A stretch of DNA of 45,178 bases from NCBI GenBank assembly GCA_947462095.1, contig CANHNQ010000014.1, forward strand, positions 1-45,178, given 5' to 3'. The notes beneath the pieces were generated by a model, which was not told where the DNA came from, did no database searches, and saw only the letters and a list, made by a program, of their open reading frames with translations. The DNA comes from Gemmatimonadota bacterium (lineage in GTDB: Bacteria > Gemmatimonadota > Gemmatimonadetes > Gemmatimonadales > Gemmatimonadaceae). Of this stretch, positions 16,616 to 41,504 are shown piece by piece. A program made the translations under genes and the position numbers. Position 1 is the stretch's first letter; the number at the start of each line of letters is the position of its first letter.

Positions 16616-16730
16616 TGCGGCAACGGCAACCGCAACGGCCAGAACACGGATCAGCAAACGGCGCTTTGTTGCTGAGCCGTGTTGTTTCCGTCTCTCCGTG
16701 TACTCCGTGTTCTGGCGGTTGGCGTTCGTA
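16616..16730. repeat. Family 1 modular inverted repeat, element A
   Basis: CGGCAA/CCGCAA hexamers, CCAGAACACGG (16639-16649) pairing with CCGTGTTCTGG (16705-16715), inner CAGCAA/TTGCTG stem. Confidence 0.8.
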
Positions 16731-16771
16731 GTTGGTTTTGGGCAGGTGCGGTGTGATTTCAGGGCGGCCGG

Positions 16772-16978
16772 GTGCCCGCGGCGCGCGCCGCGCAGGGAAG
16801 CTTCGGGGACGTCGGCTCCGTGGGCGCGCGGCCGGAAGGCGCGCCGAAGGGGAAAGACGCCTATGCCGCGGCCAACTTCGCGAGTATGGGCGACACGTCG
16901 GAGTACGTGGATCGTGAGTCGGTGGCCGATGTCATCACCTGTCTCGCCAGTTCGCTGGCACGGAATGTCTCCGGATAG
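16772..16978 (+). pseudogene. Possible remnant of a short-chain dehydrogenase/reductase C-terminus
   Basis: Translation ends ...DTSEYVDRESVADVITCLASSLARNVSG, resembling the C-terminal SDR segment; no Rossmann N-terminus or catalytic YxxxK is present upstream. Confidence 0.45.
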
Positions 16979-17036
16979 GTCATAACGCTGGCGTAGACTG
17001 GCGCCCGTCCCGTCGAGCGGACAGCTTTCTCCTTCG

Positions 17037-17894
17037 ATGACACTCGCTGCACGCAGGCGCCCGGCCGTGCGCGGGGTGATCCTCGATCGTTCTCTCGAGG
17101 AACTCCCGCTCTTTCGCCTGAGCGATTCCGCCGACGATACGCCCGTGTCGTTCTCCACGGAGAACGGTGGGCGGTGGCGCGTCATCCCCGCTCCCGGCGA
17201 CCGGCTCCCCGGCACGTTCGATCAGGACGTCTACGTCGAGCTGCTGCACCGCTACAATGAGGCCGGGTCACCGGCCGATGGCGTGGTCACCTTTACGCTC
17301 CACGCCTTTTTGCGCTCCATGGGCCGTCGTGCCGATGGACGCACCTATGAGCAGCTGCGCGCCGCCCTGTCGCGTCTCGAACGGACCACGCTCGAATCAG
17401 TCGGCGCCTACTGGTCGGCGCAGTCGGCGCTCGAGGACATCAGCTTCACCGTGCTCAGTACGGTGTCGGTGCAACGGCGGCGCGTGGCCGATCGTGAACA
17501 GCTGCACCTGTTCGGTAATCTCGCGGCCGGTGAACCCGGCGATGCCCGCGTGACCTTGTCCGCCACCCTGCGCGCCAATCTGGTCGCGCGTCACACGATC
17601 ACGCTGTCGGCGGCGCGCTATCATGCGCTCTCCTCCCCCGTCGCCCGGCGCCTGTACCGTATCCTGGAAGTCGCCCGCTCCGATGGTCGGCTCTCCTGGC
17701 GCGTCCCCCTGGAACGGCTGGCCGAGCAGCTTCCGCTCACCCAGCGCTATCCCTCGCATCTCCAGCGCGTCCTGCAGCCGGCGCACGAAATGCTGCTGAG
17801 CGCCGGGTTGGTCCGGGACATCGCCGTTCGTCAGTACGATCGGGTCTGGAGCGTGGACTATGTCCTCGGCTCCCGCCCGCGTGAAGAGGCCTGA
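17037..17894 (+). CDS. Plasmid-type replication initiator (RepA/RPA-like) protein
   Basis: EELPLFRLSDSADDTPVSFSTENGGRWRVIPAPGDRLPGTFDQDVYVELLHRYNEAG, then a winged-helix-like region; resembles the Replication initiator protein A family. Assigned by eye. Confidence 0.65.
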   Translation: MTLAARRRPAVRGVILDRSLEELPLFRLSDSADDTPVSFSTENGGRWRVIPAPGDRLPGTFDQDVYVELLHRYNEAGSPADGVVTFTLHAFLRSMGRRADGRTYEQLRAALSRLERTTLESVGAYWSAQSALEDISFTVLSTVSVQRRRVADREQLHLFGNLAAGEPGDARVTLSATLRANLVARHTITLSAARYHALSSPVARRLYRILEVARSDGRLSWRVPLERLAEQLPLTQRYPSHLQRVLQPAHEMLLSAGLVRDIAVRQYDRVWSVDYVLGSRPREEA

Positions 17895-17977
17895 CCCCCG
17901 CGCACCGGAACAGCGGCTGTCGGCAGGCGTACGTATTCTAGAGAGTTCTTTCCGGTCCCTCCTTTGAGAGCAGCCGC

Positions 17978-19588
17978 ATGACACGCACCCGCAAGGCCGC
18001 CCTGGCCAGTCTGATTCTCCTCCCCGTACTCGCCGGGGGCTTTGCCCTGCAGGCGCGGTCCACGCGCGGCGGAGCTCAGCTCCTCGACCAGGTGCTGACG
18101 TTCGTCGCCCTGCGCTACGTGGACACGCTCGACGCGCAGCAGCTCTACGAGAAGGCCGCGCGCGGCCTGGTGAAGGAACTCAACGACCCCTACACCGAAC
18201 TCTTCACCCCCAAGCAGCTCGAAGAGTTCTCGCGCAACACCAACGGGCGCTATGCCGGCATCGGCATGGAGATCTCGAAGGTCGGCGACTACGTGACGGT
18301 CAATAAGGTCTTCCCGAACTCCCCCGCCGAGGGCGGTGGGGTGCAGGAAGGCGACAAGATCATGATCATCGATACGACCAATGCGCGTGGCTTCAACACG
18401 CAGCAGGTCCAGAACAAGCTGCTCGGCCCCATCGGCACGCCGGTCGACGTGACCTTCGGCCGGATCGGCGTTGGTCAGCCCATCAAGATGAATTTCAAGC
18501 GCGCCCAGATCACCGTGCCGGCGGTGCCGTACACCTTGATGCTCGACGATCGCACCGGCTACGTGCCGCTCACGCGCTTCTCCGAGCAGACCACCGAAGA
18601 CATCGCCAACTCGGTGATGGAGCTCCGGAAGAAGGGCGCCAAGGGCATCGTCATCGACCTGCGCGGCAATCCGGGCGGCATTCTGGATGAGGCGTTCGCG
18701 ATGTCGAACTTGTTCCTCCCCAAGGGCAAGGAGCTCCTGTCGGTGCGCGGCCGCGGCGAGTTCCAGCAGTTCGTAGCCGAACGGGATCCACTCGCACCGG
18801 ATGTCCCGCTCGTCGTGCTCGTCGACGGCGGCTCGGCGTCCGCCTCGGAAATTGTCGCCGGCGCCCTGCAGGACTACGATCGCGCGCTGGTGCTGGGCAC
18901 CACGTCGTTCGGCAAGGGTCTCGTGCAGTCGGTGTACAACCTCGATGGCGGCTACGCCCTCAAGATCACCACCGGCAAGTGGTACACGCCGTCGGGTCGC
19001 TCCATCCAGAAGGAGCGCAAGATGAACGCCGAAGGCCAGTTCGCCGAAGTGCTGCCCGACTCGATGGAAACCGATTCCGTGCGCAAGGCGCGTCCCACCT
19101 ACAAGTCGGCCGGCGGCCGCACGCTGTACGGCGGCGGTGCCATCACCCCCGACGTGATCGTGGCCCCGGACACGCTGTCCGGCGCGGAGCAGGCGTTCCG
19201 GCGCGCCATCGCCCCGAACTTCCAGAAGTACTTCAACGAGATTGCCGTCATCGCTGAAGGCCAGAAGGGCAAGGTGAAGCCCGACTTCGCCGTGAACCCG
19301 GCGTGGCGTGAAGCGCTGTACCAGAAGCTGACCGCCGACACGGTCAAGATCGACAGGGCGGTCTGGGACGGTGGTGCCCCGGACATCGACCGCGCCATCG
19401 AGGACCGCGTGGCCAAGGTCGCCTTCGGCGACACGCTGGTTCGTCGGCGCAGCCTGAAGGACGACAACCAGCTGCGGGCCGCGATCGACCTGCTCAAGAA
19501 GGCCGCGATCCAGAAGGACGTCTTCACGGCAGCAGGTACCGCGCCGGCCGTCACCAAGCCCGGTGTGGCCCGCCGTGGCGGAAGCTGA
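17978..19588 (+). CDS. ctpA: C-terminal processing peptidase (S41 family, PDZ domain)
   Basis: GRYAGIGMEISKVGDYVTVNKVFPNSPAEGGGVQEGD PDZ; LRGNPGGILDEAF; LVDGGSASASEIVAGALQDYDRALVLGTTSFGKGLVQ. Confidence 0.95.
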   Translation: MTRTRKAALASLILLPVLAGGFALQARSTRGGAQLLDQVLTFVALRYVDTLDAQQLYEKAARGLVKELNDPYTELFTPKQLEEFSRNTNGRYAGIGMEISKVGDYVTVNKVFPNSPAEGGGVQEGDKIMIIDTTNARGFNTQQVQNKLLGPIGTPVDVTFGRIGVGQPIKMNFKRAQITVPAVPYTLMLDDRTGYVPLTRFSEQTTEDIANSVMELRKKGAKGIVIDLRGNPGGILDEAFAMSNLFLPKGKELLSVRGRGEFQQFVAERDPLAPDVPLVVLVDGGSASASEIVAGALQDYDRALVLGTTSFGKGLVQSVYNLDGGYALKITTGKWYTPSGRSIQKERKMNAEGQFAEVLPDSMETDSVRKARPTYKSAGGRTLYGGGAITPDVIVAPDTLSGAEQAFRRAIAPNFQKYFNEIAVIAEGQKGKVKPDFAVNPAWREALYQKLTADTVKIDRAVWDGGAPDIDRAIEDRVAKVAFGDTLVRRRSLKDDNQLRAAIDLLKKAAIQKDVFTAAGTAPAVTKPGVARRGGS

Positions 19589-19629
19589 GCGCTCGGCCTC
19601 GTCACTGTAGGTATCTCTACTGAATTGCC

Positions 19630-19672
19630 GCATGGGCTGAACCTCTCTACGGTTCAGCCCATGCGCATTTTT
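19630..19672 (+). terminator. Intrinsic terminator-like hairpin after ctpA
   Basis: GCATGGGCTGAACC - TCTCTAC - GGTTCAGCCCATGC (14 bp perfect stem) followed by GCATTTTT. Confidence 0.8.
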
Positions 19673-20743
19673 GCCCCCCTCCCGATCCTGGTCGCCGCCG
19701 CCGCCGCACTGGCAGCGGCGTGCACGTCGTCGTCGCGCGCCACCGCGGCCACCAACGCCGCCCCGATGGGCGACGTCATCGCCCCTGACAGCGGCGAATC
19801 CCACATCGCGAACATCCGCCAGCTGACGAATGGCGGCGAGAATGCCGAAGCATATTTCAGCGCCGACGGCCAGTGGATCACCTTTCAGTCCACGCGCGAC
19901 GGACGCACCTGCGATCAGCAGTTCGTGATGCGTCGTGATGGATCGGGGCTCACCAAGGTATCGGTCGGCGGCAAGACCACCTGCGGATGGTTCCTGCCAG
20001 GCAGCCAGCGTCTCTTCTTCGCCTCCACGCACGCCGCCGATAGCGCGTGTCCCTTGAAGCCCGACCCCTCGCAGGGCTACGTGTGGGGCATCGATCCGTT
20101 CGACATCTACACCGTCGGCCGCGACGGCAAGGATCTCAAGCGCCTCACCAATTACGGCGTGTACACGGCCGAGGGCGTGCTGTCACCTGATGGGAAGTCG
20201 ATCGTGTTCACGTCGCTCAAGGACGGTGATCTCGACATTTACACCATGAACGTGGACGGCACCAACGTGAAGCGCCTCACCACGACGCCGGGATACGACG
20301 GGGGTCCGTGGTGGTCGCCCGATGGCAAGAAGATCGTGTACCGCGCGTGGCACTACACCGATCCGGCTGAGCTCAAAGCGTATCAGGATCTGCTCGGCAA
20401 GCGCATGATCCGCCCGAACCGCATGGAGCTCTTCGTGATGAACGCCGACGGCTCCGATCAGCGACAGATCACCAAACTGGGCGGCGCGAACTTCGGCCCG
20501 TCGTGGACGCCGGACGGGAAGCGCATCATTTTCTCGTCGAACCACGTCAATCCGCGCAGCCGCAATTTCGACTTGTATCTGGTGGGACTCGATGGAACCG
20601 GCCTCGAGCGGATCACGACCAACGGTGACTTCGACGGCTTCCCGATGTTCAGCCCCGACGGCAAGTCGCTGATCTGGGCCTCGAACCGGCACGATGCAAA
20701 GCCGGGCGAAACGAATCTGTTCCTCGCCGACTGGAAGAACTGA
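19661..20743 (+). CDS. TolB-like WD40/PD40 beta-propeller lipoprotein
   Basis: Lipobox signal MRIFAPLPILVAAAAALAAAC; repeats GVLSPDGKSIVFTSLKDGDLDIYTMNVDGTNVKRLT. The start inside the hairpin is preferred over the ORF start at 19625 because of the signal peptide. Confidence 0.85.
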   Translation: MRIFAPLPILVAAAAALAAACTSSSRATAATNAAPMGDVIAPDSGESHIANIRQLTNGGENAEAYFSADGQWITFQSTRDGRTCDQQFVMRRDGSGLTKVSVGGKTTCGWFLPGSQRLFFASTHAADSACPLKPDPSQGYVWGIDPFDIYTVGRDGKDLKRLTNYGVYTAEGVLSPDGKSIVFTSLKDGDLDIYTMNVDGTNVKRLTTTPGYDGGPWWSPDGKKIVYRAWHYTDPAELKAYQDLLGKRMIRPNRMELFVMNADGSDQRQITKLGGANFGPSWTPDGKRIIFSSNHVNPRSRNFDLYLVGLDGTGLERITTNGDFDGFPMFSPDGKSLIWASNRHDAKPGETNLFLADWKN

Positions 20744-21250
20744 TCAGACGGCGGACGACACCTTGTGGTGCTCGTTCGCGGCGTGGAGACCGAGGGTCCG
20801 CAACTGATCGGCGGCGGTCGACTGCTCGTCGACGGTCAGCCCCTGCATGACCTGCGTTAGCATCGCGGCATGCTGCGGAAAGATCCGCGCCACGAGCTCG
20901 GTGCCGGCCGGCGTGAGCGCGGCATAGCGGGCGCGGCGATCGGCCTCGCAGGTGCGCCGCTCGACCAGTCCTTTCGCGGTCAGCCGATCCACAAGGAACG
21001 TGATTCCGCCGCTCGACACCAGAATACGACGCTGCACCTCACCCAACAGCATCGGCCCCCGATGGTAGAGCGCCTCGAGGATCGCGAATTCCGCCAGCGT
21101 CAGCCCGTGCCGTGCGACATCGGCTGACGCATGGGCGGCGATGGCCGCGTGCGCGCGCGACATGATGACCCACAGCCGGAGCGCCGCCAACGACGCCGCG
21201 TCCACGTGAGGGTCGTGCGCGTCGGGGCTGAGGGGCGCGTCCGACGCCAT
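20744..21250 (-). CDS. MarR-family transcriptional regulator
   Basis: LTLAEFAILEALYHRGPMLLGEVQRRILVSSGGITFLVDRLTAKGLVERRTCEADRRARYAALTPAG. Confidence 0.9.
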   Translation of the reverse strand: MASDAPLSPDAHDPHVDAASLAALRLWVIMSRAHAAIAAHASADVARHGLTLAEFAILEALYHRGPMLLGEVQRRILVSSGGITFLVDRLTAKGLVERRTCEADRRARYAALTPAGTELVARIFPQHAAMLTQVMQGLTVDEQSTAADQLRTLGLHAANEHHKVSSAV

Positions 21251-21365
21251 GGAATGCTTGCGACCTATGCGGGTTCCCATACCGTCAAGCCTCTCCATCG
21301 TCGGCGCGCGGCGCAAGGGTACCGGCTCACCTTCCCTCCGTCAGACGGGGGCACGAGTTTCCGGT

Positions 21366-22364
21366 ATGTCGAGATTTGATCTTCGTACCGCCGCCGTGGG
21401 CGACCGGGTACAACATGAATTCCTCGTGCGTGACCGCGCCGAGAAGATGACCAAGGCCGGGATGCCGTTCGTGGTGCTGACGCTGGCCAACGGCTCCGGC
21501 AGCATCGAGACGGCCCCGATCTGGTCGGAGAAGCTGGACTGGTGCCTTGGTGCCGACCGCGGCAAGGTCGTGCAGGTGATCGGCGACATCGGGACCTTCG
21601 GGGACAAGGGGGCCGGGAAGCGACAGCTCACGCTCTCCGCCCCCCTGCGGGTCCTCCCGTCAGAGCAGTTCGATCCCACCGACTTTCTCCCGCGCATCGA
21701 CGTCGAAACGGAGCGGGTGTGGGATGCCTTCGATGATCTGCGCGCCAAAATCAGTTCGCCCTCGGTGAAGGCCGCGGTCGATCTGTTCTTTGCCGACGAC
21801 GAGTTCCGCGTGCGCTTCGAGCGCACCCCGGGCGCGGTCAACGGGCACCATTCGCAACTCGGCGGCCTGCTGCTGCATGTGTTCGAGGTGACGAAGATCG
21901 CCAAGACGATCGCCACGACCGTGCGGAAGGCAAATGCCGACCTGGCGGTCGCCGGTGCGATGCTTCACGACATCGGCAAAGTGGAAGCCTACTCCACCTC
22001 CCCCGAGGGCTTCGCGCACACCCCCACGGGTATGCTGCTGGGCCACGTGACGCTGGGCGCCCTCATGTTCGATCGAAAGCTCCGCGACTCGGGGCTGGCG
22101 CTGTCGGTCGCGCAGCGCGACGAGCTCCTGCACTTCATCCTGTCGCACCACGGCGCGCTCGAGTTCGGCAGCCCGGTGCAGCCGATGACGGTGGAAGCCG
22201 AGATCGTGCATTGGGCCGACGAGGCGTCGGCGAAGGCCACGGATATGGTGGACGAACTGGCCGATCCGGAGCTGTTCCCCCCCGGCACCGACATCGAAGT
22301 CTCCGCCAAGCGGTCGTGGCGTCTTGGCCGGAAGTTGTGGCGTCGGCCAGCCCCGTGGGAATAG
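21366..22364 (+). CDS. OB-fold plus HD-domain protein, 3'-5' exoribonuclease YhaM-like
   Basis: N-terminal OB-like domain and HHSQLGGLLLHVFEVTKIAK...AGAMLHDIGKVEAY...LHFILSHHGALEFGSPVQPMTVEAEIVHWADEASAK. Confidence 0.88.
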   Translation: MSRFDLRTAAVGDRVQHEFLVRDRAEKMTKAGMPFVVLTLANGSGSIETAPIWSEKLDWCLGADRGKVVQVIGDIGTFGDKGAGKRQLTLSAPLRVLPSEQFDPTDFLPRIDVETERVWDAFDDLRAKISSPSVKAAVDLFFADDEFRVRFERTPGAVNGHHSQLGGLLLHVFEVTKIAKTIATTVRKANADLAVAGAMLHDIGKVEAYSTSPEGFAHTPTGMLLGHVTLGALMFDRKLRDSGLALSVAQRDELLHFILSHHGALEFGSPVQPMTVEAEIVHWADEASAKATDMVDELADPELFPPGTDIEVSAKRSWRLGRKLWRRPAPWE

Positions 22365-22551
22365 CCGTTGTCGTCCGAGTGGTCTGGTCCTAGTACCGCG
22401 TTCCTAGGAGAAAACCGTCATTTGTCCGGTAGCCGGTTAATCCTGCAAATGAATTTTTGCTGTTGCTGGTGCCGGATTCCGCAAGGGTGTTTTACATTTT
22501 TCCTCGCCGGCCGCTGGATCATGGCCGGCGTACTTTGCGCGAGGAGGCGAG

Positions 22552-22761
22552 ATGCGTAAGCCACGACCGAACACGTACAACCCAGCGCAGGCGCTGCACC
22601 TGATTGCGGCCGACCGTACTGGACTTCCTCTCAGCTGTCCGTCTTGCGAGGGTCACATTGAACGTGATCCCGTGTCGCACCCACCGGCCCAGCATTCGCA
22701 CGTCACGCTCACGTGCGCGAGCTGCGGCCGACTCGCCCGCTACATTGCCGGCGTGAATTGA
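22552..22761 (+). CDS. Small zinc-ribbon protein (two CxxC pairs)
   Basis: MRKPRPNTYNPAQALHLIAADRTGLPLSCPSCEGHIERDP...VTLTCASCGRLARYIAGVN; strong SD GAGGAGG upstream. Confidence 0.7.
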   Translation: MRKPRPNTYNPAQALHLIAADRTGLPLSCPSCEGHIERDPVSHPPAQHSHVTLTCASCGRLARYIAGVN

Positions 22762-22779
22762 CATTCACTCGGTTGCTAC

Positions 22780-22818
22780 AAAAACGCCCCGCTCCGGAAG
22801 CATCCGGTCGGGGCGTTT
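22780..22818. terminator. Bidirectional intrinsic terminator between convergent genes
   Basis: AAACGCCCCGCTCCGGAAGCATCCGGTCGGGGCGTTT; reverse strand carries GTTTTTGT. Confidence 0.85.
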
Positions 22819-22839
22819 CGTTTGCACCGTGTGGCGAAC

Positions 22840-23118
22840 TCACCAGTTGATCGTGCCTTGCTTGGTGGTATCCACGTCTTCCGCATCGCCTTTCTTGAAC
22901 AGAAAAGCATCCATGTTGCGCGTCAGGAAGGTGCGCGCCTGCGGGTCCATCACGTTCAACCCATAGTGATTGATCAGCATGGTTTGCTGCTTCAACCACT
23001 GCCCCCAGCACTCCTTGCAGATCTCCCCCAGGATTCTGGCACCAACGGCGCCGGGAAACGGCGGGCGTTCGAAGCCCTCTCGGGTCTGACCACAGCGCGA
23101 GCAGGTTACATCAGCCAT
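22840..23118 (-). CDS. yggX: Fe(2+)-trafficking / oxidative damage protection protein
   Basis: MADVTCSRCGQTREGFERPPFPGAVGARILGEICKECWGQWLKQQTMLINHYGLNVMDPQARTFLTRNMDAFLF. Confidence 0.93.
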   Translation of the reverse strand: MADVTCSRCGQTREGFERPPFPGAVGARILGEICKECWGQWLKQQTMLINHYGLNVMDPQARTFLTRNMDAFLFKKGDAEDVDTTKQGTINW

Positions 23119-23319
23119 GCGTTGACTCCGAAACGCAGACGCGCGCACCGTCGCGCGTGGACGTCACGCGGCGTGCGAGTCGGCGGAATGATTGTGGTGG
23201 AGGACTTCACCGATCGCATTGCGGCCGGTCACCGAAAAGTAGCCCGGCACGCGGAGCGCGCCAGCGGTGGTGCTCGCACGGACGCCAGCGGTTCCCGCCG
23301 GATGGCCGAGCGTGGTCAC

Positions 23320-23493
23320 GAACAGCAACAGCGACAGCGACCGCAACAGCTACCGCAACAGCTACCGCAACAGCCAGAACACGGAGACCACGGATCACAC
23401 GGAATCAACACAGATAAGCAGAAAGCGCTTTTTGCTTATCTGTGGCGGTTTCCGTGTGATCCGTGGTCTCCGTATTCTGACTGTTGCTGTTCG
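23320..23493. repeat. Family 1 modular inverted repeat, element B (about 60 bp near-perfect stem)
   Basis: Left arm CAACAGCCAGAACACGGAGACCACGGATCACACGGAATCAACACAGATAAGCAGAAAGC pairs with GCTTTTTGCTTATCTGTGGCGGTTTCCGTGTGATCCGTGGTCTCCGTATTCTGACTGTTG; apex AAAGCGCTTT. Confidence 0.92.
23340..23375. repeat. 12-nt tandem repeat (ACCGCAACAGCT x3) in the outer tail of element B
   Basis: ACCGCAACAGCT ACCGCAACAGCT ACCGCAACAGCC read directly; nested in a hexamer series AACAGC/GACAGC/TACCGC. Confidence 0.9.
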
Positions 23494-23524
23494 CTCTGCG
23501 CGCATGTTTCCGCGAACGCCGCCG

Positions 23525-24382
23525 CTACACCACGTGCGTATCCAGCCAATCGGCCGTGAGTGCCGCCACCTCGTCGCGGCAATAGTCGGCCGAAATGATG
23601 TGTCCGCATCCCGTGAGCCACTCCTGGCGCTTGTCGGCGCTGCCGAGCGCCGCGAAATGGGTCTCGGCGTCGCGCGCGGCAATCCGGTTGTCCTCGCGGG
23701 ACTGCAGATACAGGGTGGGAACCCACACGCGGGAGAGCGCCGCCTCCGCGTCTTCGGCCACGCGGCGTAGTTCCGTGAGCGTTCGCGCCGTCACCACGTC
23801 GGGGCCGAGACTCGCGGCGCGGGCGGCTGGGTCGTGAATGGACGTCGCACCACCCACACTTCGCAAGTACGGGAGTGCCACACAGGCGATCCAGGCACCG
23901 AGCACTTTCCACTGCAGATCGCGCGGCATGCCCACGTACGGCGCCAGCAACACCAGCGCCGGGATCTGCGGCCGCTCAGTGGCCAACAACAACGCCAAGG
24001 CACCACCCATGCTCTGGCCGACGACCATCACGCTGTCGTACTCGTGGCAGAGCGCGTCGTATTCGGCAAGCACGGCCTCGCGCCATCGCGCCGCACGCGA
24101 CGCTTGCGCCATGGTGGCGAGATCGCGGCCATGGCCCGGCAACAGCGGTACGCGCACCGTGTAGCCCCGCGCGCGCAGTTTGTGGGCCAGATATGCCATC
24201 GACTGGGCCGTGTCGTTGAATCCATGCAACAGCAACACCGCGCGGCGCGAGACGCCGTCATCCTCCGACGCGCGCAACGTAAAACCCGCCGCTCCCTGCA
24301 CAATGCCCTGCGCATCGAAGCGAAAACGACGGGTGTGCGCGGCCTCGAAGTGCGTGCGCGCGGCAGCGCGCCAGAACGTCAT
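23525..24382 (-). CDS. Alpha/beta hydrolase (serine esterase / lysophospholipase-like)
   Basis: VLLLHGFNDTAQSMAYLAHKLRARGYTVRVPLLPGHGRD; nucleophile elbow VGQSMGGALALLLA; C-terminal GCGHIISADY. Confidence 0.88.
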   Translation of the reverse strand: MTFWRAAARTHFEAAHTRRFRFDAQGIVQGAAGFTLRASEDDGVSRRAVLLLHGFNDTAQSMAYLAHKLRARGYTVRVPLLPGHGRDLATMAQASRAARWREAVLAEYDALCHEYDSVMVVGQSMGGALALLLATERPQIPALVLLAPYVGMPRDLQWKVLGAWIACVALPYLRSVGGATSIHDPAARAASLGPDVVTARTLTELRRVAEDAEAALSRVWVPTLYLQSREDNRIAARDAETHFAALGSADKRQEWLTGCGHIISADYCRDEVAALTADWLDTHVV

Positions 24383-24406
24383 GCGGGTGCCGGTTGGCGC
24401 GACGTG

Positions 24407-25495: not shown

Positions 25496-25505
25496 GATCG
25501 AACGA

Positions 25506-32083: not shown

Positions 32084-32866
32084 CTACCTGGAAAAGACGG
32101 CATCCGTTGCGTCCACGCGCGCAACGATCGCGGTTCCCGCCTCGGGAACAGTGAGTGCGGCGAGATCGCCGATCCGCACTCGGTGGACACCACCGGCCAG
32201 CGCCTGCGCGCAGGCATCGAGCTTGGCGGCCATGCCGCCTCCCGCCACTCCACTCGTCACCAATGCCTGCGCCTCGTCGAGCGAGAGACGCGGCACGAGC
32301 GCCTTGTCGCCGTCGAGCACGCCGGGCACGTCCGCCATCAGAAACAGTTCATCGGCCCCAAGCGCCGCGGCGATGGCCGCGGCCGCATCGTCGCCATTCA
32401 CGTTGTACGCACCGGCCCCGCCGTCTGCTTCACGCGCCGCCACCGGCGAGATCACCGGGAGAAATCCCGATGCCAGCAGGGCGCGCACCAGCCGCGGATC
32501 AACCACCGAGGGGGTGCCGGAGTGCCCGAACGTGGCCACATCGATCGGTACCGCCCGCAACAGCGCGGCGTCCTCGCCGGAAATACCGACCGCCGGCGCA
32601 CCCGCCGCCACCAACGCCGAGACCATCTGCTTGTTCGCGAGCCCCGACAACACCATGCGCACCAACTCGAGGGCGGTATCGGTCGTCACGCGACGACCAC
32701 CCACAAACACCGGCTCCTCACCGCGCAGCCGCTGCAACGCACTGATCTGATCGCCACCGCCGTGCACGACCACGACACCGCCATCCGTCGCGCGCCACAA
32801 GGCGGCAAGGGCTGCGGGCAACGCGGGATCGTTCTGGGTGCGGCCACCGAGTTTGACGACAAACAT
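32084..32866 (-). CDS. argB: Acetylglutamate kinase
   Basis: FVVKLGGRTQ...VVVVHGGGDQIS...GGRRVTTDTALELVRMVLSGLANKQMV...NVNGDDAAAAIAAALGADELFLMADVPGVLDG. Confidence 0.93.
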   Translation of the reverse strand: MFVVKLGGRTQNDPALPAALAALWRATDGGVVVVHGGGDQISALQRLRGEEPVFVGGRRVTTDTALELVRMVLSGLANKQMVSALVAAGAPAVGISGEDAALLRAVPIDVATFGHSGTPSVVDPRLVRALLASGFLPVISPVAAREADGGAGAYNVNGDDAAAAIAAALGADELFLMADVPGVLDGDKALVPRLSLDEAQALVTSGVAGGGMAAKLDACAQALAGGVHRVRIGDLAALTVPEAGTAIVARVDATDAVFSR

Positions 32867-32880
32867 TTTTATAACTGCGA

Positions 32881-33009
32881 AGTAGGGAGTACGGAGTAGG
32901 GAGTAGGGAGTAGGGAGTACGGGGATGACGGCGAAGTACGGAGCACGGTGTCGGCGGTGGAGCGCTACCCCCTACCCCCCACCCCCTACGCCCGACCCCG
33001 TACTCCGCT
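32881..33009. repeat. Family 2 heptamer (GTAGGGA) inverted repeat, element D
   Basis: GTAGGGA GTACGGA GTAGGGA GTAGGGA GTAGGGA GTACGGG (32882-32923), then opposite-strand arm CTACCCCCTACCCCCCACCCCCTACGCCCGACCCCGTACTCCGC. Confidence 0.85.
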
Positions 33010-33010
33010 C

Positions 33011-34078
33011 TTATCGAGGAAGTCCCGCGGTCTCTTCAAGCCCCAGCATCAGGTTCGCGTTCTGGATCGCCTGACCCGCCGCGCCCTTCACCAGGTTGTC
33101 GATCGCGCTGAACACCAGCAGCGTCGGCGTGCGCATGCCGCTCGGCATCCGCGCACCGATGCGCACCACGTTGCGATGCTGCACGTCGGCCAGTGCGGGG
33201 AGATCGGCGGTGAGCTCCACGAACGGCTCGTGGGCGTACATGTCCCGGAACGGCGTCAGCGCATCGTCGAGGGGCCGCGTGAGCGGCACCGTGATGGTGG
33301 ACAGGATGCCACGGTCCACCGGCAGCAGATGCGGGGTGAACAGCAGATCGCAGTCGGCACCGAGCGCCGCAAGGCTGGCCCGCATCTCGAACAGATGCCG
33401 ATGCGAATTACCCACGCCATACGCTCGGAAATTTTCCGTCACCTCGGCAAACAGCAGCTCGAGTTTGGGCGACGCGCCGGCGCCGCTCACGCCGCTGGCC
33501 GCCGCGATGTTCACCGTTGCGCCGGGCGCTATCAGCCCGGCCTTCGCCAGCGGGGCGAGCGCCACCAGAATGCTGGTCGCATAGCAGCCGGGGTTCGCCA
33601 CCACGCGCGCGCCATGCAGTGGTGTACGAAAGAGCTCCGGGAGCCCGTACGGTGCATCGCTCGGCACGCCGGTGGGCGCATGATCGGTCCCGCCATGTCC
33701 GGGACGGAGATCGCTCGAGAGATCGACCACCCGGGCGCCGGCCGCGATGACGTGTGCCACCCACTCGGCCGAGGCGCCATGCGGCAACGCCGCGAACACC
33801 AGATCGGCGCTCGCCAAATCGACCTCGTCGGGCCCCACCATCGGAATCGCATGCACCCGCCCCCCCGCCTTCACGCGCAGCGTCGTGCCGCGCTGTGCAT
33901 TCGCCGTGGCAAACGCGAGGGTCAGGTTGGGATGTCCGAGAATGAGCGCGCAGAGCTCGCGCCCCGAGTACCCACTCGCGCCCAGCACGCCCACGCGATA
34001 CGTGGGTCCGGTAACGGTCGGGGTGGGGAGTTGCGTGACGTCCGGTAAAGTATGCACAATTAATGCATAATTTTGCAT
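33011..34078 (-). CDS. argC: N-acetyl-gamma-glutamyl-phosphate reductase
   Basis: YRVGVLGASGYSGRELCALILGHPNLTLAFATANAQRG...ANPGCYATSILVALAPL. Start uncertain: ATG 34078, GTG 34057 or further downstream. Confidence 0.9.
   Translation of the reverse strand: MQNYALIVHTLPDVTQLPTPTVTGPTYRVGVLGASGYSGRELCALILGHPNLTLAFATANAQRGTTLRVKAGGRVHAIPMVGPDEVDLASADLVFAALPHGASAEWVAHVIAAGARVVDLSSDLRPGHGGTDHAPTGVPSDAPYGLPELFRTPLHGARVVANPGCYATSILVALAPLAKAGLIAPGATVNIAAASGVSGAGASPKLELLFAEVTENFRAYGVGNSHRHLFEMRASLAALGADCDLLFTPHLLPVDRGILSTITVPLTRPLDDALTPFRDMYAHEPFVELTADLPALADVQHRNVVRIGARMPSGMRTPTLLVFSAIDNLVKGAAGQAIQNANLMLGLEETAGLPR
34051..34078. promoter_or_regulatory. Two overlapping ARG-box-like palindromes between divergent argC and argR
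   Basis: TATGCACAATTAATGCATA (34051-34069) and ATGCATAATTTTGCAT (34063-34078), AT-rich in a GC-rich background. Confidence 0.65.
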
Positions 34079-34175
34079 CACGACACTGTCAATCGGCCGC
34101 GTGTCACAGTGGTGCGTGGTTTCCTTCCCGGTGGCGCATAATTCGGCGCCGAACCGATTCGCAGGAGTCTGTCGC

Positions 34176-34637
34176 GTGTCCGACAAGAAACAGCGCCATC
34201 AAGTTATCCGCGAGATCGTCACCGCGAAGGCCGTGGCCAGTCAGGAAGAGCTGCGACGCCAGCTCGCCAAGCGCGGCTGGGACGTCACCCAGTCCACCCT
34301 CTCGCGCGACCTGCGCGAACTCCGCCTGGCCCGCATTCCCGACGCCCAGGGCCGTTCCCGGTACGCCTTCCTCGAGAGCGGTGGCGATGAGGACGCACTC
34401 GCGCAGCTCGAGCGCATGCTTCCGCAGCTGCTCACCGAGGTGGAAGGAGTGCAGGTCCTCGTGGTGGCCCGCACCATCAAGTCGGGCGCGCAGCCCGTGG
34501 CCGAGGCGCTCGATCAGCTGCAGTGGCCCGATGTCGCGGGCACGATTGCCGGCGATGATACGGTGCTCATCATCTGCCGCTCCACGGAGGGGCGAGAGCG
34601 CGTCCTCAAGAAACTTCGTGCGTATCTGCGCGCCTGA
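34176..34637 (+). CDS. argR: Arginine repressor
   Basis: KKQRHQVIREIVTAKAVASQEELRRQLAKRGWDVTQSTLSRDLRELRLARI; C-terminal TIAGDDTVLIICRSTEGRERVLKKL. GTG start after GCAGGAG. Confidence 0.93.
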   Translation: MSDKKQRHQVIREIVTAKAVASQEELRRQLAKRGWDVTQSTLSRDLRELRLARIPDAQGRSRYAFLESGGDEDALAQLERMLPQLLTEVEGVQVLVVARTIKSGAQPVAEALDQLQWPDVAGTIAGDDTVLIICRSTEGRERVLKKLRAYLRA

Positions 34638-34700
34638 TCCACGGCCGATCCTCTAGATTTCCCGCGTCGTTATTCCTTCGAACCCTGTCGTGAGTATGCC

Positions 34701-36128
34701 GTGAGCACTTCCGAAGCCGGAACCCATAAGCTGTGGGGCGGTCGATTCGCCGGTGGCCCGTCGCCGCTCCTCGATGCGATCAATCGCTCCATCGGCACCG
34801 ACTTCCGACTCTGGCCGCACGATGTGCGGCTCTCCAAGGCGTGGGCGCTGGCGCTGGGTGAAGCGGGGGTACTCACGCGTGAAGAGAGCGACGCGCTGCA
34901 GCAGGGACTCGACCGCGTGGGTCGGCGTATCGCCGACGGCGCGCAGCCGGTGGCGACCGACGAAGACATCCACACCATGATCGACCGCCTGCTGCACGAG
35001 GAAGCCGGCACGGTTGCCTCCAAGCTGCATACGGGGCGGTCGCGCAACGATCAGGTCGCCACGGCGTCGCGCCTCTGGACGATGGACGCCTGCCGGCGCG
35101 TCACGGCCGCCATCGCCGAACTGCAACAGGCGCTCCTGTTGCAGGCCGAGGGGCTCACCGACGCGGTACTGCCGGCCTATACGCACCAGCAGCGCGCCCA
35201 GCCGGTGAGCGGCACCCACTGGCTCCTCGCGCACTTCTGGCCGCTGTCGCGCGACCGGACGCGATTCGCCAACGCCGAGCGCGGCACGTCGGTGATGCCG
35301 CTGGGTTCAGGGGCGATTGCCGGCTCGGCGTTCCCGGTGTCACGCGTGCTGCTCAAGGAGTCGCTCGGCTTCCAGGCGATCTCCGCCAACAGCATCGACG
35401 CCACCGGCGACCGCGATTTCGTGGCCGAGACGTTGTTCGCCTGCGCCATGACGGCGGCGCACTGCTCGCGCCTGGCCGAAGACATGATCCTGTACGGCAC
35501 GAGCGAGTTCGGCTTCGTGAAATTCGGCGACGGCTTCTCCACGGGCAGCAGCATGATGCCCCAGAAGCGGAACCCGGATGTGTTCGAACTGGCCCGTGGC
35601 TCGGGCGCGCGCGTGTTGGGCGACCTCGTGTCGATTCTCGGCACCATCAAGGGACTGCCCAGTGGCTACAGCAAGGATTTGCAGGACGACAAGCGCGCGT
35701 TGTTCAACGCCATTGACCTGCTGTTGCTGGTGCTGCCGGCGATGGCCGGTGCCATCGCTGAACTGCGGTTCGAGAAGACGCGCATGCGCGCGGCCTGCTC
35801 GAGTGCGATGATGGCGACCGATCTGGCCGACTATCTCGTCAAGAAGGGCGCCACGTTCCGCGAGGCGCACGGGGCCGTGGGCGCGCTGGTGCGGCAGGCG
35901 GAAGAAGGGGGCATCGAGCTCGACCGGCTCCCCGTCGACGCGTTCACCGCCGCACACACGCTGTTCGGCACGGATGCGCGCGACGCCCTGGGCGTAGACG
36001 CCTCACTCGCCGCGCGCAACATCGATGGCGGCACCGGTCCCGACGCCGTGCAGCGCCAGCTCGCGCAAGCCCGTGCGAGTCTGACCCCCGTCGACCCATC
36101 GCTCGGCAATGAACGCACCCTCCGCTGA
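34701..36128 (+). CDS. argH: Argininosuccinate lyase
   Basis: HKLWGGRFAGGPSPLLDAINRSIGTDFRLW, LHTGRSRNDQVATASRLW, GSSMMPQKRNPDVFELARG. Confidence 0.95.
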   Translation: MSTSEAGTHKLWGGRFAGGPSPLLDAINRSIGTDFRLWPHDVRLSKAWALALGEAGVLTREESDALQQGLDRVGRRIADGAQPVATDEDIHTMIDRLLHEEAGTVASKLHTGRSRNDQVATASRLWTMDACRRVTAAIAELQQALLLQAEGLTDAVLPAYTHQQRAQPVSGTHWLLAHFWPLSRDRTRFANAERGTSVMPLGSGAIAGSAFPVSRVLLKESLGFQAISANSIDATGDRDFVAETLFACAMTAAHCSRLAEDMILYGTSEFGFVKFGDGFSTGSSMMPQKRNPDVFELARGSGARVLGDLVSILGTIKGLPSGYSKDLQDDKRALFNAIDLLLLVLPAMAGAIAELRFEKTRMRAACSSAMMATDLADYLVKKGATFREAHGAVGALVRQAEEGGIELDRLPVDAFTAAHTLFGTDARDALGVDASLAARNIDGGTGPDAVQRQLAQARASLTPVDPSLGNERTLR

Positions 36129-36804
36129 GCGACTCCGCCACGCCGTCGGTGGCACCATCGATGGGGTGATTTTCGATTGCGACGGCGTGCTGGTGGACAG
36201 CGAACGCATCTCGAACGGCACGTGGGCGTTGCTGCTGACCGAGATCGGTTTGCCCATGACGATGGAGCAATCGCTCAGCATTTTCATGGGCAACTCGATG
36301 CCACGCTGCGTCGAGATCGTGACCGAGATGATGGGCCACGCACCGCCGGACGACCTGCTGGCACGCTTCACGGCGAATGTGACCGTGGCGTTGCAACGCG
36401 ACCTCGAGCCCGTACACGGCATCGTGCCTCTGCTCGATACGCTCGATGCCGCAGGCGTCCGTTACGGCGTGGCGTCGAACGGCGAGCACGAAAAAATGCG
36501 CACGACGCTCGGCAAAACAGGGCTGCTCGATCGCTTCGAGGGGAAGCGCTTCTCGGCGGTCGATGTCGGCAAGCCCAAGCCGGCCCCGGATCTCTTTCTG
36601 CACGCCGCGCGCGCACTCGGCTTCAATCCGGCGCGCACGGTGGTCGTGGAGGACAGTCCGCTCGGCGTGCAGGGAGCGACGGCCGCCGGCATGACGGTGA
36701 TCGGCTATGCGGAGATTGTCTCAGCGGAACGACTGCGCGCGGCTGGTGCGGTGGTCACCGTCGAGCGGCTCGGTGAGGTGGCAGGGCTACTGGGCGTCAG
36801 CTGA
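36109..36804 (+). CDS. HAD-family phosphatase / beta-phosphoglucomutase-like hydrolase
   Basis: GVIFDCDGVLVDSERISN, YGVASNGEHEKMRTTLGKTGL, GKPKPAPDLFLHAARALGFNPARTVVVEDSPLGVQGATAAGM. Confidence 0.92.
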   Translation: MNAPSAERLRHAVGGTIDGVIFDCDGVLVDSERISNGTWALLLTEIGLPMTMEQSLSIFMGNSMPRCVEIVTEMMGHAPPDDLLARFTANVTVALQRDLEPVHGIVPLLDTLDAAGVRYGVASNGEHEKMRTTLGKTGLLDRFEGKRFSAVDVGKPKPAPDLFLHAARALGFNPARTVVVEDSPLGVQGATAAGMTVIGYAEIVSAERLRAAGAVVTVERLGEVAGLLGVS

Positions 36805-36875
36805 CGCCCTCAACCGCACGGATAGCAACTGAAACAAGCGACTCCTGCCTCACAAACGCGTAAAGTCGACGCCGC

Positions 36876-37451
36876 CTAAAACGCGTAGCCGATCGTGAGC
36901 CGTAACGTCGGCACAACGCGCTCGAGGTTTGGGGACTCCGCAATGAAGAACCGCTTCACGCCACCGCCGATCGCGACGGCGGTAGAGCGGCCCCTGCCCA
37001 GCAACCACTGATACTGCGCTTCCACCGCGAAGGTTGGCGCGGAGGCGGACGGCTTGTCGGGAACGCACAGGATCCCTACGAACGGATCGCAGACATTCGC
37101 GTACGGGGTCTTCACCCGGCCATATCCGAGTCCCGCCGAGATGCCGAGCTTCTCCAGCACGCGCTCCTGCGGATACAAGCGCAGTTTCACGTCGACGCTC
37201 GTGTACACGTCGTCGAGCTTCATATGCGCGCCGGAGATACCGACCGACGTGCTTTGCGTGATCCGGTGCTCGTATTCGCCCTGAAAGTAGCCGAACAGCG
37301 GCAGGAACGGATTCACCGAGATGACCTGTGTCGGCGACTTCGTGCTCGGTTCACGCGTCTGCTCGCGCAGCGATTGCGCGGCGAGGGTCGTGGCACCGAG
37401 GGCGAGGGCGCCGACCAGCGCCGTCGTGGATCGGATGAGGGAGTAGCGCAT
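36876..37451 (-). CDS. Secreted/outer-membrane beta-barrel-like protein
   Basis: Signal MRYSLIRSTTALVGALALGATTLAAQ and C-terminal VVPTLRLTIGYAF ending in an aromatic residue. Confidence 0.7.
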   Translation of the reverse strand: MRYSLIRSTTALVGALALGATTLAAQSLREQTREPSTKSPTQVISVNPFLPLFGYFQGEYEHRITQSTSVGISGAHMKLDDVYTSVDVKLRLYPQERVLEKLGISAGLGYGRVKTPYANVCDPFVGILCVPDKPSASAPTFAVEAQYQWLLGRGRSTAVAIGGGVKRFFIAESPNLERVVPTLRLTIGYAF

Positions 37452-37467
37452 AAGAGGTATCAAAGCG

Positions 37468-38784
37468 TCAGTGGGACTGCAGCACGGCCGAGGCGGCATC
37501 CTGCCCGCCTCGCGCCGCACCTTCGAGTGAGCTGGAGTGCAACACTTCGCTGGCACGCCACAGCCCCGGTATACCACACGCGATCGTCGGACGGTGTTCC
37601 CGCCATCCCGGAGGCTGTGCAAACTGCGCGTACGGCACCCGCCACACGGCCTCGCGCGACAGGGCAGCGGTCTTGGCGTCAGCCGCCGCATCACCGGCGG
37701 CCTTCGCCATGGCCGCGAGCTCGCGACGGGCGGCCGATTCGAGATCGGCATCGGACCGATCGGCCGCAGCACCAACCGCACTCGCGGCAACGAGCGACAC
37801 GCCGCGCGGTGCGTAGTCCGGCGCGACATCGGTGATCGTCACGGCATGACTCATCACGGCCGAGGCATCGGCATTCAGCCACAGCGCACGGCCGGGAATC
37901 GGCGATGCACCGCTGGTGGTGAAATACAGCGTGGTCGTGCCGCGCGCCCCCGACGGCGTAGCAATCTGCACGCCGGCCGTGGCCGCGAGTTTCGCCGCGG
38001 CCGGGGCATCGGTGGCCATGATGACCTGCGCCGCCGGCAACACGTCGCCGCCAGCCAGCACCACGCCGGTCACGCGACCGTCGTTGACCGTGAGTGATTG
38101 CACGGCCACGCCGGTCTTCACCGTGCCAGTCGGAAGCCGCGCCGCCAACTGCTTCGTGAGGGCACCCATCCCGGCGGCGGGCACGACCGTGTCCCCCTCG
38201 GCCAGCATCTTGAACGTGAACAGCAGCACCGAGGCGCTGGTGGCGAGGGTACGGTCCAGCAGAATGCCGCCGTAGAACGGGGCGAAGAATCCGTCGATCA
38301 CCGACGCGCTGAATCCGCGCGACGCCAGGAAATCGCGCGTGCTCACCCCCGCGAACCGCGCGCTGAAGCATTCGTCAATGGACAGCCGCTGGGCGAAGCG
38401 GCGCAACGCGAGCAGGCGCAGCTTGTCGCCGAGCGGCACGGCGCGCGCCATGACGGTGTCGATCAGCAGCGACGGATCACTCAGCGCGTCGCCGATCAAC
38501 GAGGCACGGCCTCCCTGCACGATCCGGGCGGCCGGCAAGAATTTGCGCGGCGCGAGCGCATCGAGATCGAGGTAGCGGCGCAGCGTGGGATACGCCGTGA
38601 ACAGCACCTGGAAGCCATGGTCGAACACGAGGCCGTCGCGCGTGGTGCTTCGCACCCGCCCACCAACCTCCAGCCCGGCATCGAGGACAACGACGGGTCG
38701 GCCGGCGCGATGGAGCTCAATCGCACACACGAGGCCGGCAACGCCGGCGCCGACAATGATGATGGGGGGAGTCTGGCTGGTCAT
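37468..38784 (-). CDS. NAD(P)/FAD-dependent amine oxidase / desaturase-like oxidoreductase
   Basis: PPIIIVGAGVAGLVCAIELHRAGRPVVVLDAGLEVGGRVRST; YAQFAQPPGWREHRPTIACGIPGLWRASEVLHSSSLEGAARGGQDAA. Confidence 0.9.
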   Translation of the reverse strand: MTSQTPPIIIVGAGVAGLVCAIELHRAGRPVVVLDAGLEVGGRVRSTTRDGLVFDHGFQVLFTAYPTLRRYLDLDALAPRKFLPAARIVQGGRASLIGDALSDPSLLIDTVMARAVPLGDKLRLLALRRFAQRLSIDECFSARFAGVSTRDFLASRGFSASVIDGFFAPFYGGILLDRTLATSASVLLFTFKMLAEGDTVVPAAGMGALTKQLAARLPTGTVKTGVAVQSLTVNDGRVTGVVLAGGDVLPAAQVIMATDAPAAAKLAATAGVQIATPSGARGTTTLYFTTSGASPIPGRALWLNADASAVMSHAVTITDVAPDYAPRGVSLVAASAVGAAADRSDADLESAARRELAAMAKAAGDAAADAKTAALSREAVWRVPYAQFAQPPGWREHRPTIACGIPGLWRASEVLHSSSLEGAARGGQDAASAVLQSH

Positions 38785-38837
38785 CCTTCCGAAAAGTGGC
38801 AGGACATCGCACCGAACAGTATCCCCCGAGACACAAT

Positions 38838-38867
38838 AGGCCCGGTATCCGTGCGGATGCCGGGCCT
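38838..38867 (-). terminator. Terminator-like hairpin downstream of the beta-barrel gene
   Basis: AGGCCCGGTATCCG-TG-CGGATGCCGGGCCT, 13 of 14 paired plus a wobble; only a weak U tract. Confidence 0.5.
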
Positions 38868-38886
38868 TGCCGTGCGGTACTGTGAA

Positions 38887-39432
38887 CTAGAAGCGCACGC
38901 CGAACGTGATCGGGATGTACCCGGTGCTGTTGTTCTCCGCGAACACGTTGACGTACTTCGCTTCGAGGAACGTGGAGAACCCGGAGAGCTGGAAGTTGAG
39001 CCCGCCACCCACCTGAATGCCGACATCCGTGCTGCTGGTCGAGACGTTCACCGAGCCGGCGGTCGTGGACGTCTTGCCATTGAAGGCACCGAGGCCGCCC
39101 AGGACGTACGGCTTCACGCCGCCGCTCGACGACACGTCCACCAGCGCATTGCCCACGAAGCCGAGACTGGTGTACGTGCCATCGACATTGCCCTTGTAGG
39201 CATAGCGATCGAAGCTCACGTCCCCACGGAAGCGAAGCGACTTCATCGTTGCCGGCTTGAGAAACACGTGGCCGGCGATGGTATAGCCGGCGTCCACGGC
39301 GTCACCGAGGTTGCCGGTCGGAACCGACAGTCCACCGCTCACACCGAACCCCACGGCCGAGGACTGGGCACTGACCATCGCGGGTGTCATCAGCATCACG
39401 GCCACCGCGGCGAACTTGGCAAGGCGATTCAT
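38887..39432 (-). CDS. Outer-membrane beta-barrel domain protein
   Basis: Signal MNRLAKFAAVAVMLMTPAMVSAQ; GVSGGLSVPTGNLGDAV...GGGLNFQLSGFSTFLEAKYV...IPITFGVRF. Confidence 0.8.
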   Translation of the reverse strand: MNRLAKFAAVAVMLMTPAMVSAQSSAVGFGVSGGLSVPTGNLGDAVDAGYTIAGHVFLKPATMKSLRFRGDVSFDRYAYKGNVDGTYTSLGFVGNALVDVSSSGGVKPYVLGGLGAFNGKTSTTAGSVNVSTSSTDVGIQVGGGLNFQLSGFSTFLEAKYVNVFAENNSTGYIPITFGVRF

Positions 39433-39479
39433 GGCGCGCTCCAAAGCGTGTAGGGGAATGCTGGGACACGGCACTCGTG

Positions 39480-39941
39480 TTACTCCGGTAGCACGCTCAC
39501 CCCGGTCACGAAGTACTCCGTATCGCCAAAGCATGACGTCGGCACGTAGATGTGCTGCTCGTAGTCCACTGCAACTCTCTTGCCGCTGAGCGCTTCGATC
39601 ACGTGGGCGAGCGAATCACTGCGCACCGTGAACGAGAAACTGTCGGACCGAAATCCACGGGCGATGTCGGTGTAGAGCGTCCCTTCCCAGGTTTTGCAGA
39701 CGTAGCCCTTTCGGGAAATCTTCTGCACGAAGCCGGCCCGCTTGCCGGTGGAGTAGCTCCAGCTGAGCGCGATCGTAGCCCAGAGGGCGAGCCCGAGAGC
39801 CGGGAGGCCGAACACACCGAAGACCCCGAACGCCAGCCAATGTCGACGCAGGAACGACGGGCGGGGCTTCGGCGTGGGCGCGGCGATCGGGCGATCGGAC
39901 GCGCCTTCGTGTGCATCGAACGGCGGAGTGGGATCGGACAC
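39480..39941 (-). CDS. Conserved membrane protein of unknown function
   Basis: One TM segment ([25 protein letters not shown]), then [30 protein letters not shown]; coding-like composition. Confidence 0.7.
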
Positions 39942-40061
39942 GGCGGCGGCAGGGTGGTGAGTGCAACGAGGAGCCGGCTCGCGGAAACGCCGGATTGCGA
40001 GGAACTTGGGGAGGAGTCCCCGCCCGCGCTACCTTATAGCAGCCACTCTCAACCGGAATCC

Positions 40062-41303
40062 ATGGTGTCTTTCGTTCACGGCCTCAGCACTCGTCGTCCT
40101 ACCGTCACCACGAAGGTGCGCGGTGTCTCTGTCGGCTCCGCCGCACCGATCGTGGTGCAGTCGATGACCAACACCGATACGGCTGATGCCGCGGGCACCG
40201 CGGATCAGGTCGCGGCCCTCTTCGAGGCCGGGTCGCAGAAAGTACGCATCACGGTCAACAACGACGAGGCCGCTCAGGCAGTCCCCGAGATCCGGCAGCG
40301 GCTGGAAGATCGCGGTCTGGATGTCCCGCTCATCGGCGACTTCCACTACAACGGGCACCTGCTGCTCACCAAGTATCCGGCGTGCGCCGCCGCGCTCGAC
40401 AAGTACCGCATCAATCCGGGCAACGTGGGCACGAAGCATCGCGACACGAACTTCACCACGATTGTGCAGGCAGCGATCGATCATGACAAGCCGGTGCGCA
40501 TCGGCGTGAATTGGGGCTCGCTCGATCAGAACCTGCTCACCGACATGATGGACAGCAACGCGAAGTTGGCCCAGCCACGCGACGCGAAGGATGTCTACAT
40601 GGACGCGATGCTGGAGAGCGCGCTGCGTTCCGCCGCGCTCGCCGAAGAAGTCGGCCTCGGTCACGACAAGATCATCGTGAGCGCCAAGATCTCCGTCGTG
40701 CCCGATCTCGTGGAGTGCTATCGTCGTCTCGCCAAGCGCTGCGACTATCCGCTGCACCTCGGTCTCACCGAGGCGGGCATGGGCACGAAGGGTGTCGTGG
40801 CTTCGGCGGCGGCCCTCGGCATTCTGCTCAGCGAAGGGATCGGCGACACGATCCGCGTGTCCCTCACGCCGAAGCCGAATGGCGATCGTCGTGAGGAAGT
40901 GTTCGTGGCGCAGCAGATTCTGCAGTCGCTGGGGCTGCGGTCGTTCGCCCCACAGGTCACGGCGTGCCCGGGGTGCGGACGGACCACGAGCACGTTCTTC
41001 CAGCACATGGCCGAAGACATCCAGGGCTATCTGCGCGAGCAGATGCCGGTGTGGCGCGAGTCGCGGCCGGGGGTGGTGGAGATGAAAGTGGCCGTGATGG
41101 GATGCGTCGTGAACGGTCCGGGCGAATCCAAGCACGCCAACATCGGCATTTCGCTGCCGGGCACGTTCGAAGAGCCGAAGGCGCCGGTGTACGTGGACGG
41201 CAAGCTCTTCACCACACTCAAGGGCGACAAGATCGTCGAGGAATTCCTCGTGATTCTCGAGAACTACGTCGAGACGAGCTACGGCGCGACGGCCGGCGTG
41301 TGA
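40062..41303 (+). CDS. ispG: 4-hydroxy-3-methylbut-2-en-1-yl diphosphate synthase
   Basis: [61 protein letters not shown]-like [52 protein letters not shown]. Confidence 0.96.
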
Positions 41304-41342
41304 GCTTCTGGTTCCGCGTTGGCTGAAAGATCGCTACTGCCG

Positions 41343-41504
41343 GAACACGGATGACGCGGATGTAAAAGGGAAACGACACGGATAAGCGGTGTGCTGCCGC
41401 TGCGCCGTGTCGTTCGCTTTATGAGTCAACACATTCGCTTTTGCTTTTGCTTATCCGTGTGGTTTCGGTGTCTTCCGCGTCATCCGTGTTCTGGCCGTTC
41501 CGAT
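41343..41504. repeat. Family 1 modular inverted repeat, element C
   Basis: GAACACGGATGACGCGGA (41343-41360) pairs perfectly with TCCGCGTCATCCGTGTTC (41474-41491); ACACGGATAAGC pairs with GCTTATCCGTGT; ends CTGGCCGTTCCG. Confidence 0.9.

Follow-up and report, generated by a model that had tools for sequence, protein, structure and literature searches.

A dispersed, modular extragenic palindrome family with recurrent in-place inversion in freshwater Gemmatimonas-type bacteria

Three inverted repeats (A, B and C) in a 45,178-nucleotide contig of Gemmatimonadota DNA, referred to below as the window, are copies of a dispersed palindromic family of about 100 letters, represented by some 30 copies in the 3.64-Mb host genome (G000, a draft that is 82% complete). 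The family, which is modular, extragenic and recurrently inverted in place, is real and apparently has no name. The reading favored here, with a probability of roughly 60%, is that of a dispersed extragenic palindromic repeat located 3' of genes, the evolution of which has been shaped by polymerase template switching between its two arms.

Elements in the window

All three inverted repeats were present where the original prediction had placed them, with the cores at 16642–16712 (A), 23377–23477 (B) and 41343–41491 (C) and with hexamer tails of the CAACRG type outside. In the palindrome scan of the window B and C were the only strong palindromes scored, with none in the Markov control, and the RNA folding z-scores were about −17 for B, −9 for C and −3 for A.

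Element A, including its hexamer tails, occupies positions 16616–16730, 3' of an aminotransferase class-V gene (Aminotran_5, 15510–16610, plus strand), and its 71-bp core starts about 30 bp past the stop codon. Its earlier interpretation as a variant architecture was not borne out: A is a shortened copy, since the same site holds full elements of 100–105 bp in seven relatives (G011, G016, G019, G023, G024, G026, and G029). Downstream of A, a gene matching Replication initiator protein A (PF10134) is located at 17037–17894, on a contig that is apparently chromosomal.

Element B consists of a left tail of (CAACAG)-type hexamers (23320–23376), whose outer part is unpaired, and of two arms (23377–23419 and 23434–23477) surrounding the apex AGAAAGCGCTTTTT. 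A segment of its left arm at 23386–23397, comprising spacer 1 (GAC), the module CACGGA and spacer 2 (TCA), is identical in the right arm in G000. An alpha/beta-hydrolase gene (23525–24382, minus strand) has its 3' end towards the element. Element C lies between the 3' ends of two convergent genes, GcpE (IspG; 39552–41303, plus strand) and an HD-domain gene (41527–42162, minus strand), and begins 39 bp past the GcpE stop codon. It is bounded by an 18-bp perfect inverted repeat, GAACACGGATGACGCGGA at 41343–41360 (plus strand) and its pairing partner at 41474–41491 (minus strand), which hold the inversion breakpoints. With G000, G016 and G023 as the reference, the enclosed 113-bp interior (41361–41473) is flipped in place in G024 and G027.

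The window also contains another modular palindrome at 32886–33006, built from GGAGTAG/GGAGTACG heptamers with 82% complementarity and a 43-nt loop, which suggests that several palindrome families of like design are present in G000. At 7078–7590, a Lys/Ala/Pro-rich low-complexity 3' part of a gene carries short DNA repeats (families D1 and D2) in steps of 3.

Copies, grammar and distribution of the family

The shoulder motif CAGAACACGGA occurred 51 times in the host genome, compared to a single occurrence of the reversed-pattern control. A covariance model was built from 23 copies, and the profile search for further copies, which had been proposed as a test, recovered about 29 elements in G000 and gave matches in 29 of 61 genomes. 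The consensus is a palindrome of about 100 bp composed of 9-bp modules (CRCNGA plus three free bases) with the apex GATAAGC–GCGCTTTTT–GCTTATC. In full, the aligned copies read (CAACRGC)n CA-GAACACGGA-TGA-CACCGA-TNN-CACGGAA-MCA-ACACGGATAAGC-AAAAGCGCTTTTT-GCTTATCCGTGT-TGK-TTCCGTG-NNA-TCSGTG-TCA-TCCGTGTTC-TG(GCYGTTG)n. What had been described as a differing module order is better expressed as a fixed grammar, in which CRCNGA recurs every 9 bp, with a final step of 11 bp, and the 3-bp spacers are free. Extra apex sequence was present in some copies (element C, L001 and L037). The long-apex copy L001, at the end of contig C8 of G000, is tandemly duplicated there, and G019 has a tandem array (C138:16499–17060, L263/L074) in which one element, together with its tails, is repeated at least three times with near identity.

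Rfam models gave no match to the family at the gathering score, no full element was found in viral contigs, and no description of the CACGGA palindrome or of Gemmatimonas palindromes was found in the openly licensed literature.

The host genome falls in the same genus as genomes titled Gemmatimonas phototrophica and lake uncultured Gemmatimonadetes. The matches of the covariance model were concentrated in this genus (26 of 30 genomes), with only three genomes outside it having 1–4 weak matches each. The family is typical of one freshwater Gemmatimonas-type clade. The copy number among the congeners varied from zero to about 30, several of them having no copies by the model, and the more distant congeners used their own dialects of the CRCNGA grammar, such as CGCGGATTACGCGGAAACC.

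Scanning of 84,980 species for the exact shoulder produced 43 Gemmatimonas-type loci and four others, the latter in bins titled Methylobacter, Flavisolibacter, Brachymonas and Anaerolineae (the taxonomy being that of the record titles). The pattern ACACGGA-N40-70-TCCGTGT matched 20, 9, 5 and 2 times, respectively, in these four bins as titled, and its reversed control 0, 0, 1 and 0 times, confirming the suggestion in the original prediction of CACGGA-type text in other environmental genomes. Many palindromes of the four bins also showed ACNGA every 9–10 bp, and those inspected were mostly located shortly past stop codons. It is conceivable, if rather doubtful, that the CRCNGA palindromes represent one multi-phylum class of elements at gene 3' ends, which would be maintained through sequence-specific recognition of the module, often flipped in place by a dedicated or co-opted process and served by a host factor of their own.

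Inversion, retention and copying at orthologous sites

Flank matching between genomes identified 31 sites with both flanks orthologous. When both arms were compared between pairs of orthologs at 16 sites, 190 arm-difference cells were retained, 87 were swapped and 39 had changed in concert, and 29 of the 39 concerted cells came from site A, nearly all of them involving G029. The continual within-element homogenization that had been predicted is therefore not the rule: arm copying is rare, since most arm differences persist across species, and the swapped differences, the commonest pattern after retention, represent inversion of the whole element in place.

With non-orthologous pairs as the null, in-place inversion between conserved flanks was significant at 4 of the 31 sites. 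At element C, G024 and G027 carry the reverse complement of the whole interior between outer flanks that are unchanged, the alignment scoring 37 in forward and 115 in reverse-complement orientation. In the trees of both flanks G016 and G027 were sisters (support 100/100), and because their C elements have opposite orientations and each state also occurs in other genomes, C must have flipped at least twice. The flipped segments were 90–130 bp long, and the perfect inverted repeats at the inverted sites were 14–24 bp in most copies, which is short for RecA recombination, whose length in Escherichia coli is about 23–27 bp. For the fourth inverted site, the perfect repeat through the shoulder is only 6 bp long in G029, so that this event is older or less certain. 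The genomes compared are mostly short-read bins, but an assembly artefact is an unlikely cause of the inversions, because the perfect repeats are mostly 14–24 bp, shorter than the k-mers usual in assembly, and the elements are about as short as the reads.

True arm-to-arm copying was rarer than inversion and was observed at element B and, in one relative, at site A. At B, G000 has TCACAC in both arms and G014 has TTTTCAC in both, while G016 is a hybrid with one of each; in terms of spacer 2, G016 combines TCA in one arm with TTTT in the other, and G014 has TTTT in both. The concerted change at B thus comprises several bases and includes an indel. At site A, G029 shows parallel changes in its two arms: CACGGATAAG became CACCGATAAG, and GAAAC became GACAAC.

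In the comparison of empty sites, the absences were either deletions that had left a scar (G019 at C, G027 at L031a) or too diverged, and G026 had merely 3 bp between both flank alignments at site C. At the G027 site orthologous to L031a (L096) the element is gone and a short tail-like remnant, AACGGCTGGAACA, is left, consistent with hairpin deletion by slippage. The G029 site orthologous to C (L165) carries an unrelated palindrome of another vocabulary (CTCTTTTTCTCC...CACAGAGGAAAAGAGG...AAAGAG), as if the C site were prone to palindromes.

Matching between arms is local

The original prediction stated that in B and C each arm copies its own partner and named, as a result able to refute it, arms of different elements being closer to each other. 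When this comparison was run, many elements had arms of other elements closer than their own partner. For the 44-nt arms of G000 the own-partner score was 26.6 against 24.7 for random partners (p = 0.007), so private matching does not generally extend over the whole arm; it was borne out at B and, on statistical grounds, at the outermost spacer in general. The outermost spacer triplet was the same in both arms in 47.5% of the elements, compared to 16.5% with shuffled partners (p < 5e-5, n = 40, one element per site). The second spacer was identical in both arms in 15% versus 5% (p = 0.016), without an excess in base matches, and the inner spacer and inner stem showed little or no private match. 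Relative to the invariant shoulder, the excess of private matches extended from about −13 to +18; it peaked at the shoulder and tailed off within some 15–18 bp of it. Elements B and C are thus the strong end of a local effect, whole-arm matching not being the rule, and a general private match of the arms is ruled out by the comparison of own with other arms together with the differences retained between orthologs.

The mean identity between arms was 78%, with many indels, and the arm mismatches comprised 654 transversions and 433 transitions.

Template switching as the proposed mechanism

In the favored reading, a long quasi-palindrome of 9-bp CRCNGA modules just downstream of genes would either be tolerated or serve as a stem-loop at the 3' end. 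Its hairpin would form during replication, allowing the polymerase to switch template between the two arms: an inter-strand switch at the outer shoulder would invert the whole element in place, while a short intra-hairpin switch would copy a few bases from arm to arm beside the shoulder. Two marks of quasipalindrome template switching were found in the family, i.e., multi-base homogenization of the arms at orthologous sites (B in G000, G014, and G016; A in G029) and inversion of a spacer between short inverted repeats, both of them centered on the perfect shoulder. We infer template switching as the agent. Templated repair, one of the ideas in the original prediction, is still the mechanism that fits best, since it also predicts the inversions, even though the homogenization is not continual.

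Where inverted repeats are short, template switching is reported to cause both arm homogenization and spacer inversion, reversibly (PMC8604942), and to make and maintain RNA hairpins and invert their loops (PMC8794818); in bacteria, according to the earlier work summarized in PMC8604942, it favors transversions, which also predominate among the arm mismatches of this family. The spacer inversions attributed to it in yeast coding DNA are a few bases long (PMC8604942). Since the segments flipped here are 90–130 bp, short-homology recombination or a host recombinase is possible as the flipping agent.

Placement relative to genes and RNA pairing

The orientation of neighboring genes was analyzed with a simple codon-based gene finder at 41 independent sites, using 194 gaps of at least 60 bp as the background. 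The sites comprised 19 convergent, 20 tandem and 2 divergent gaps, compared to 32, 108 and 54, respectively, in the background, i.e., an enrichment in convergent (Fisher p = 1e-4) and a depletion in divergent gaps (Fisher p = 1e-3). In tandem gaps the elements were found at a median of 40 bp past the stop codon and 143 bp ahead of the next start.

This placement, together with the very stable predicted stems, is what a selected functional RNA hairpin would show, acting as an mRNA 3'-end stabilizer or a bidirectional terminator, with the paired changes as compensatory mutations. The pairing itself argues against such a hairpin, which we consider possible but not probable. At tandem sites the sense strand had as many G.U as A.C mismatches (91:91), giving no sign of selection via RNA wobble pairs and leaving the strong selection for structure that had been suggested unsupported at the level of RNA pairing. 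RNAalifold found almost no covariation support, with a double change in 3 of 21 consensus pairs. The divergence between arms, with its many indels and transversions, and the multi-base concerted changes that include indels fit compensatory mutation poorly, and module letters are kept irrespective of pairing while the spacers drift. The T-run of an intrinsic terminator was absent directly after the hairpin, where the tails, by reading, are of the CTGTTGC type.

The shoulder as RNA, ACACGGAUGA (e.g., window 41345–41354), is present in all elements; it resembles the RsmE/CsrA consensus, and CsrA is encoded in 27 of the 30 genomes of the genus. CsrA/RsmA sites were set aside, as GGA is missing from the second module, which usually reads CACCGA, and as the stem buries the motif.

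Constraint on the modules

Sequence constraint was measured on 51 same-orientation ortholog pairs with a mean flank identity of 86%. The outer shoulder changed in 1–2%, module 2 in 7–8% and the spacers in 18–33%, and the fixed letters of modules 1, 2 and 4 changed in 0–4% at most left-arm positions, including the C, C, G and A of module 2. The shoulder served for detection of the copies and its conservation is therefore partly ascertained, but modules 2 and 3 were not so used. Retention of module letters with drifting spacers indicates a sequence-specific constraint, and since base pairing by itself would leave the letters unprotected, the module is probably read by some factor, presumably a DNA- or RNA-binding partner.

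A conserved protein might bind the CRCNGA modules of both arms as a DNA array, the symmetry being a consequence of dimeric or two-sided binding. Besides the contrast between modules and spacers, this tentative alternative would account for the module spacing, which peaks at 9 and 11 bp, close to a turn of the helix, and for the same grammar in bins of other phyla. Clustering of the copies also speaks for it: in the complete genome G029, 15 of the 26 collapsed element positions were inside one megabase (p = 0.0012), and the cluster at 3.16–3.96 Mb surrounds dnaA (3.69 Mb), G029 being the only complete genome with many copies. It is weakened by the congeners in which the model found no copies and by the ascertained shoulder, and no candidate protein was identified.

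Mobility and site-specific recombination

Dispersed extragenic palindromes with 0 to about 30 copies among congeners, and with tandem copies in G019, could also be elements of the REP/BIME type mobilized by a RAYT (Y1 transposase), or MITEs moved by another transposase. This is unlikely: Y1_Tnp was absent from G000, at its 82% completeness, and from the complete G029 with about 30 copies, and was found in 8 of 30 genomes only, not tracking the copy number. The end tags of REP elements were lacking as well, with GTAG beside 3 and CGTC beside 8 of 254 palindrome ends, and neither target duplication nor clean insertion was seen at the compared orthologous sites. RAYT mobilization was rejected, PF01797 being absent or not co-distributed with the family, and the spread of the copies needs no RAYT. 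A dedicated site-specific recombinase inverting the element at its CAGAACACGGA shoulders, like phase-variable invertible DNA, would suit the recurrent flips at C and the strictly conserved inverted shoulders, but it is highly improbable, as no switchable promoter or gene was recognized inside the element, no linked recombinase gene was noticed and template switching accounts better for the conversion-like copying between arms beside the shoulder.

Relation to known systems and meaning

By description, the family is similar to ERIC/IRU and YPAL of Enterobacteriaceae, which are dispersed, extragenic, about 100–170 bp long and form one long stem-loop; the 9-bp CRCNGA build, the recurrent in-place inversion and the species dialects are not part of the account consulted of those elements (PMC2267715). 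Short extragenic palindromes in many copies are likewise characteristic of REP/BIME/REPIN with RAYT (PMC3733652, PMC2817692, PMC3116915), but the core is about 100 bp here versus a palindrome of 20–40 bp in REP/BIME, and the Gemmatimonas family has no co-occurring Y1 transposase. Compared by eye, superintegron attC sites are also imperfect palindromes between genes, while the copies inspected lack RYYYAAC/GTTRRRY end cores and are often located between convergent genes. With quasipalindrome template-switch mutation (PMC8604942, PMC8794818, PMC7202029) the family shares recurrent and reversible arm homogenization and spacer inversion, and it differs from the reported cases in being a dispersed repeat family with flips of 90–130 bp instead of a few bases.

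As a kind, the bacterial extragenic palindromic repeat is already known; the novelty lies in its build, in the flipping and in how widely the grammar extends. The family links look-alike palindromes of unrelated environmental bacteria that seemingly had no name, and it separates pairing, module sequence and upkeep mechanism, which are usually confounded in extragenic palindromes. If template switching is indeed the agent, it offers a natural bacterial system in which this process can be read at dozens of orthologous sites, including flips of whole hairpins of about 100 bp.
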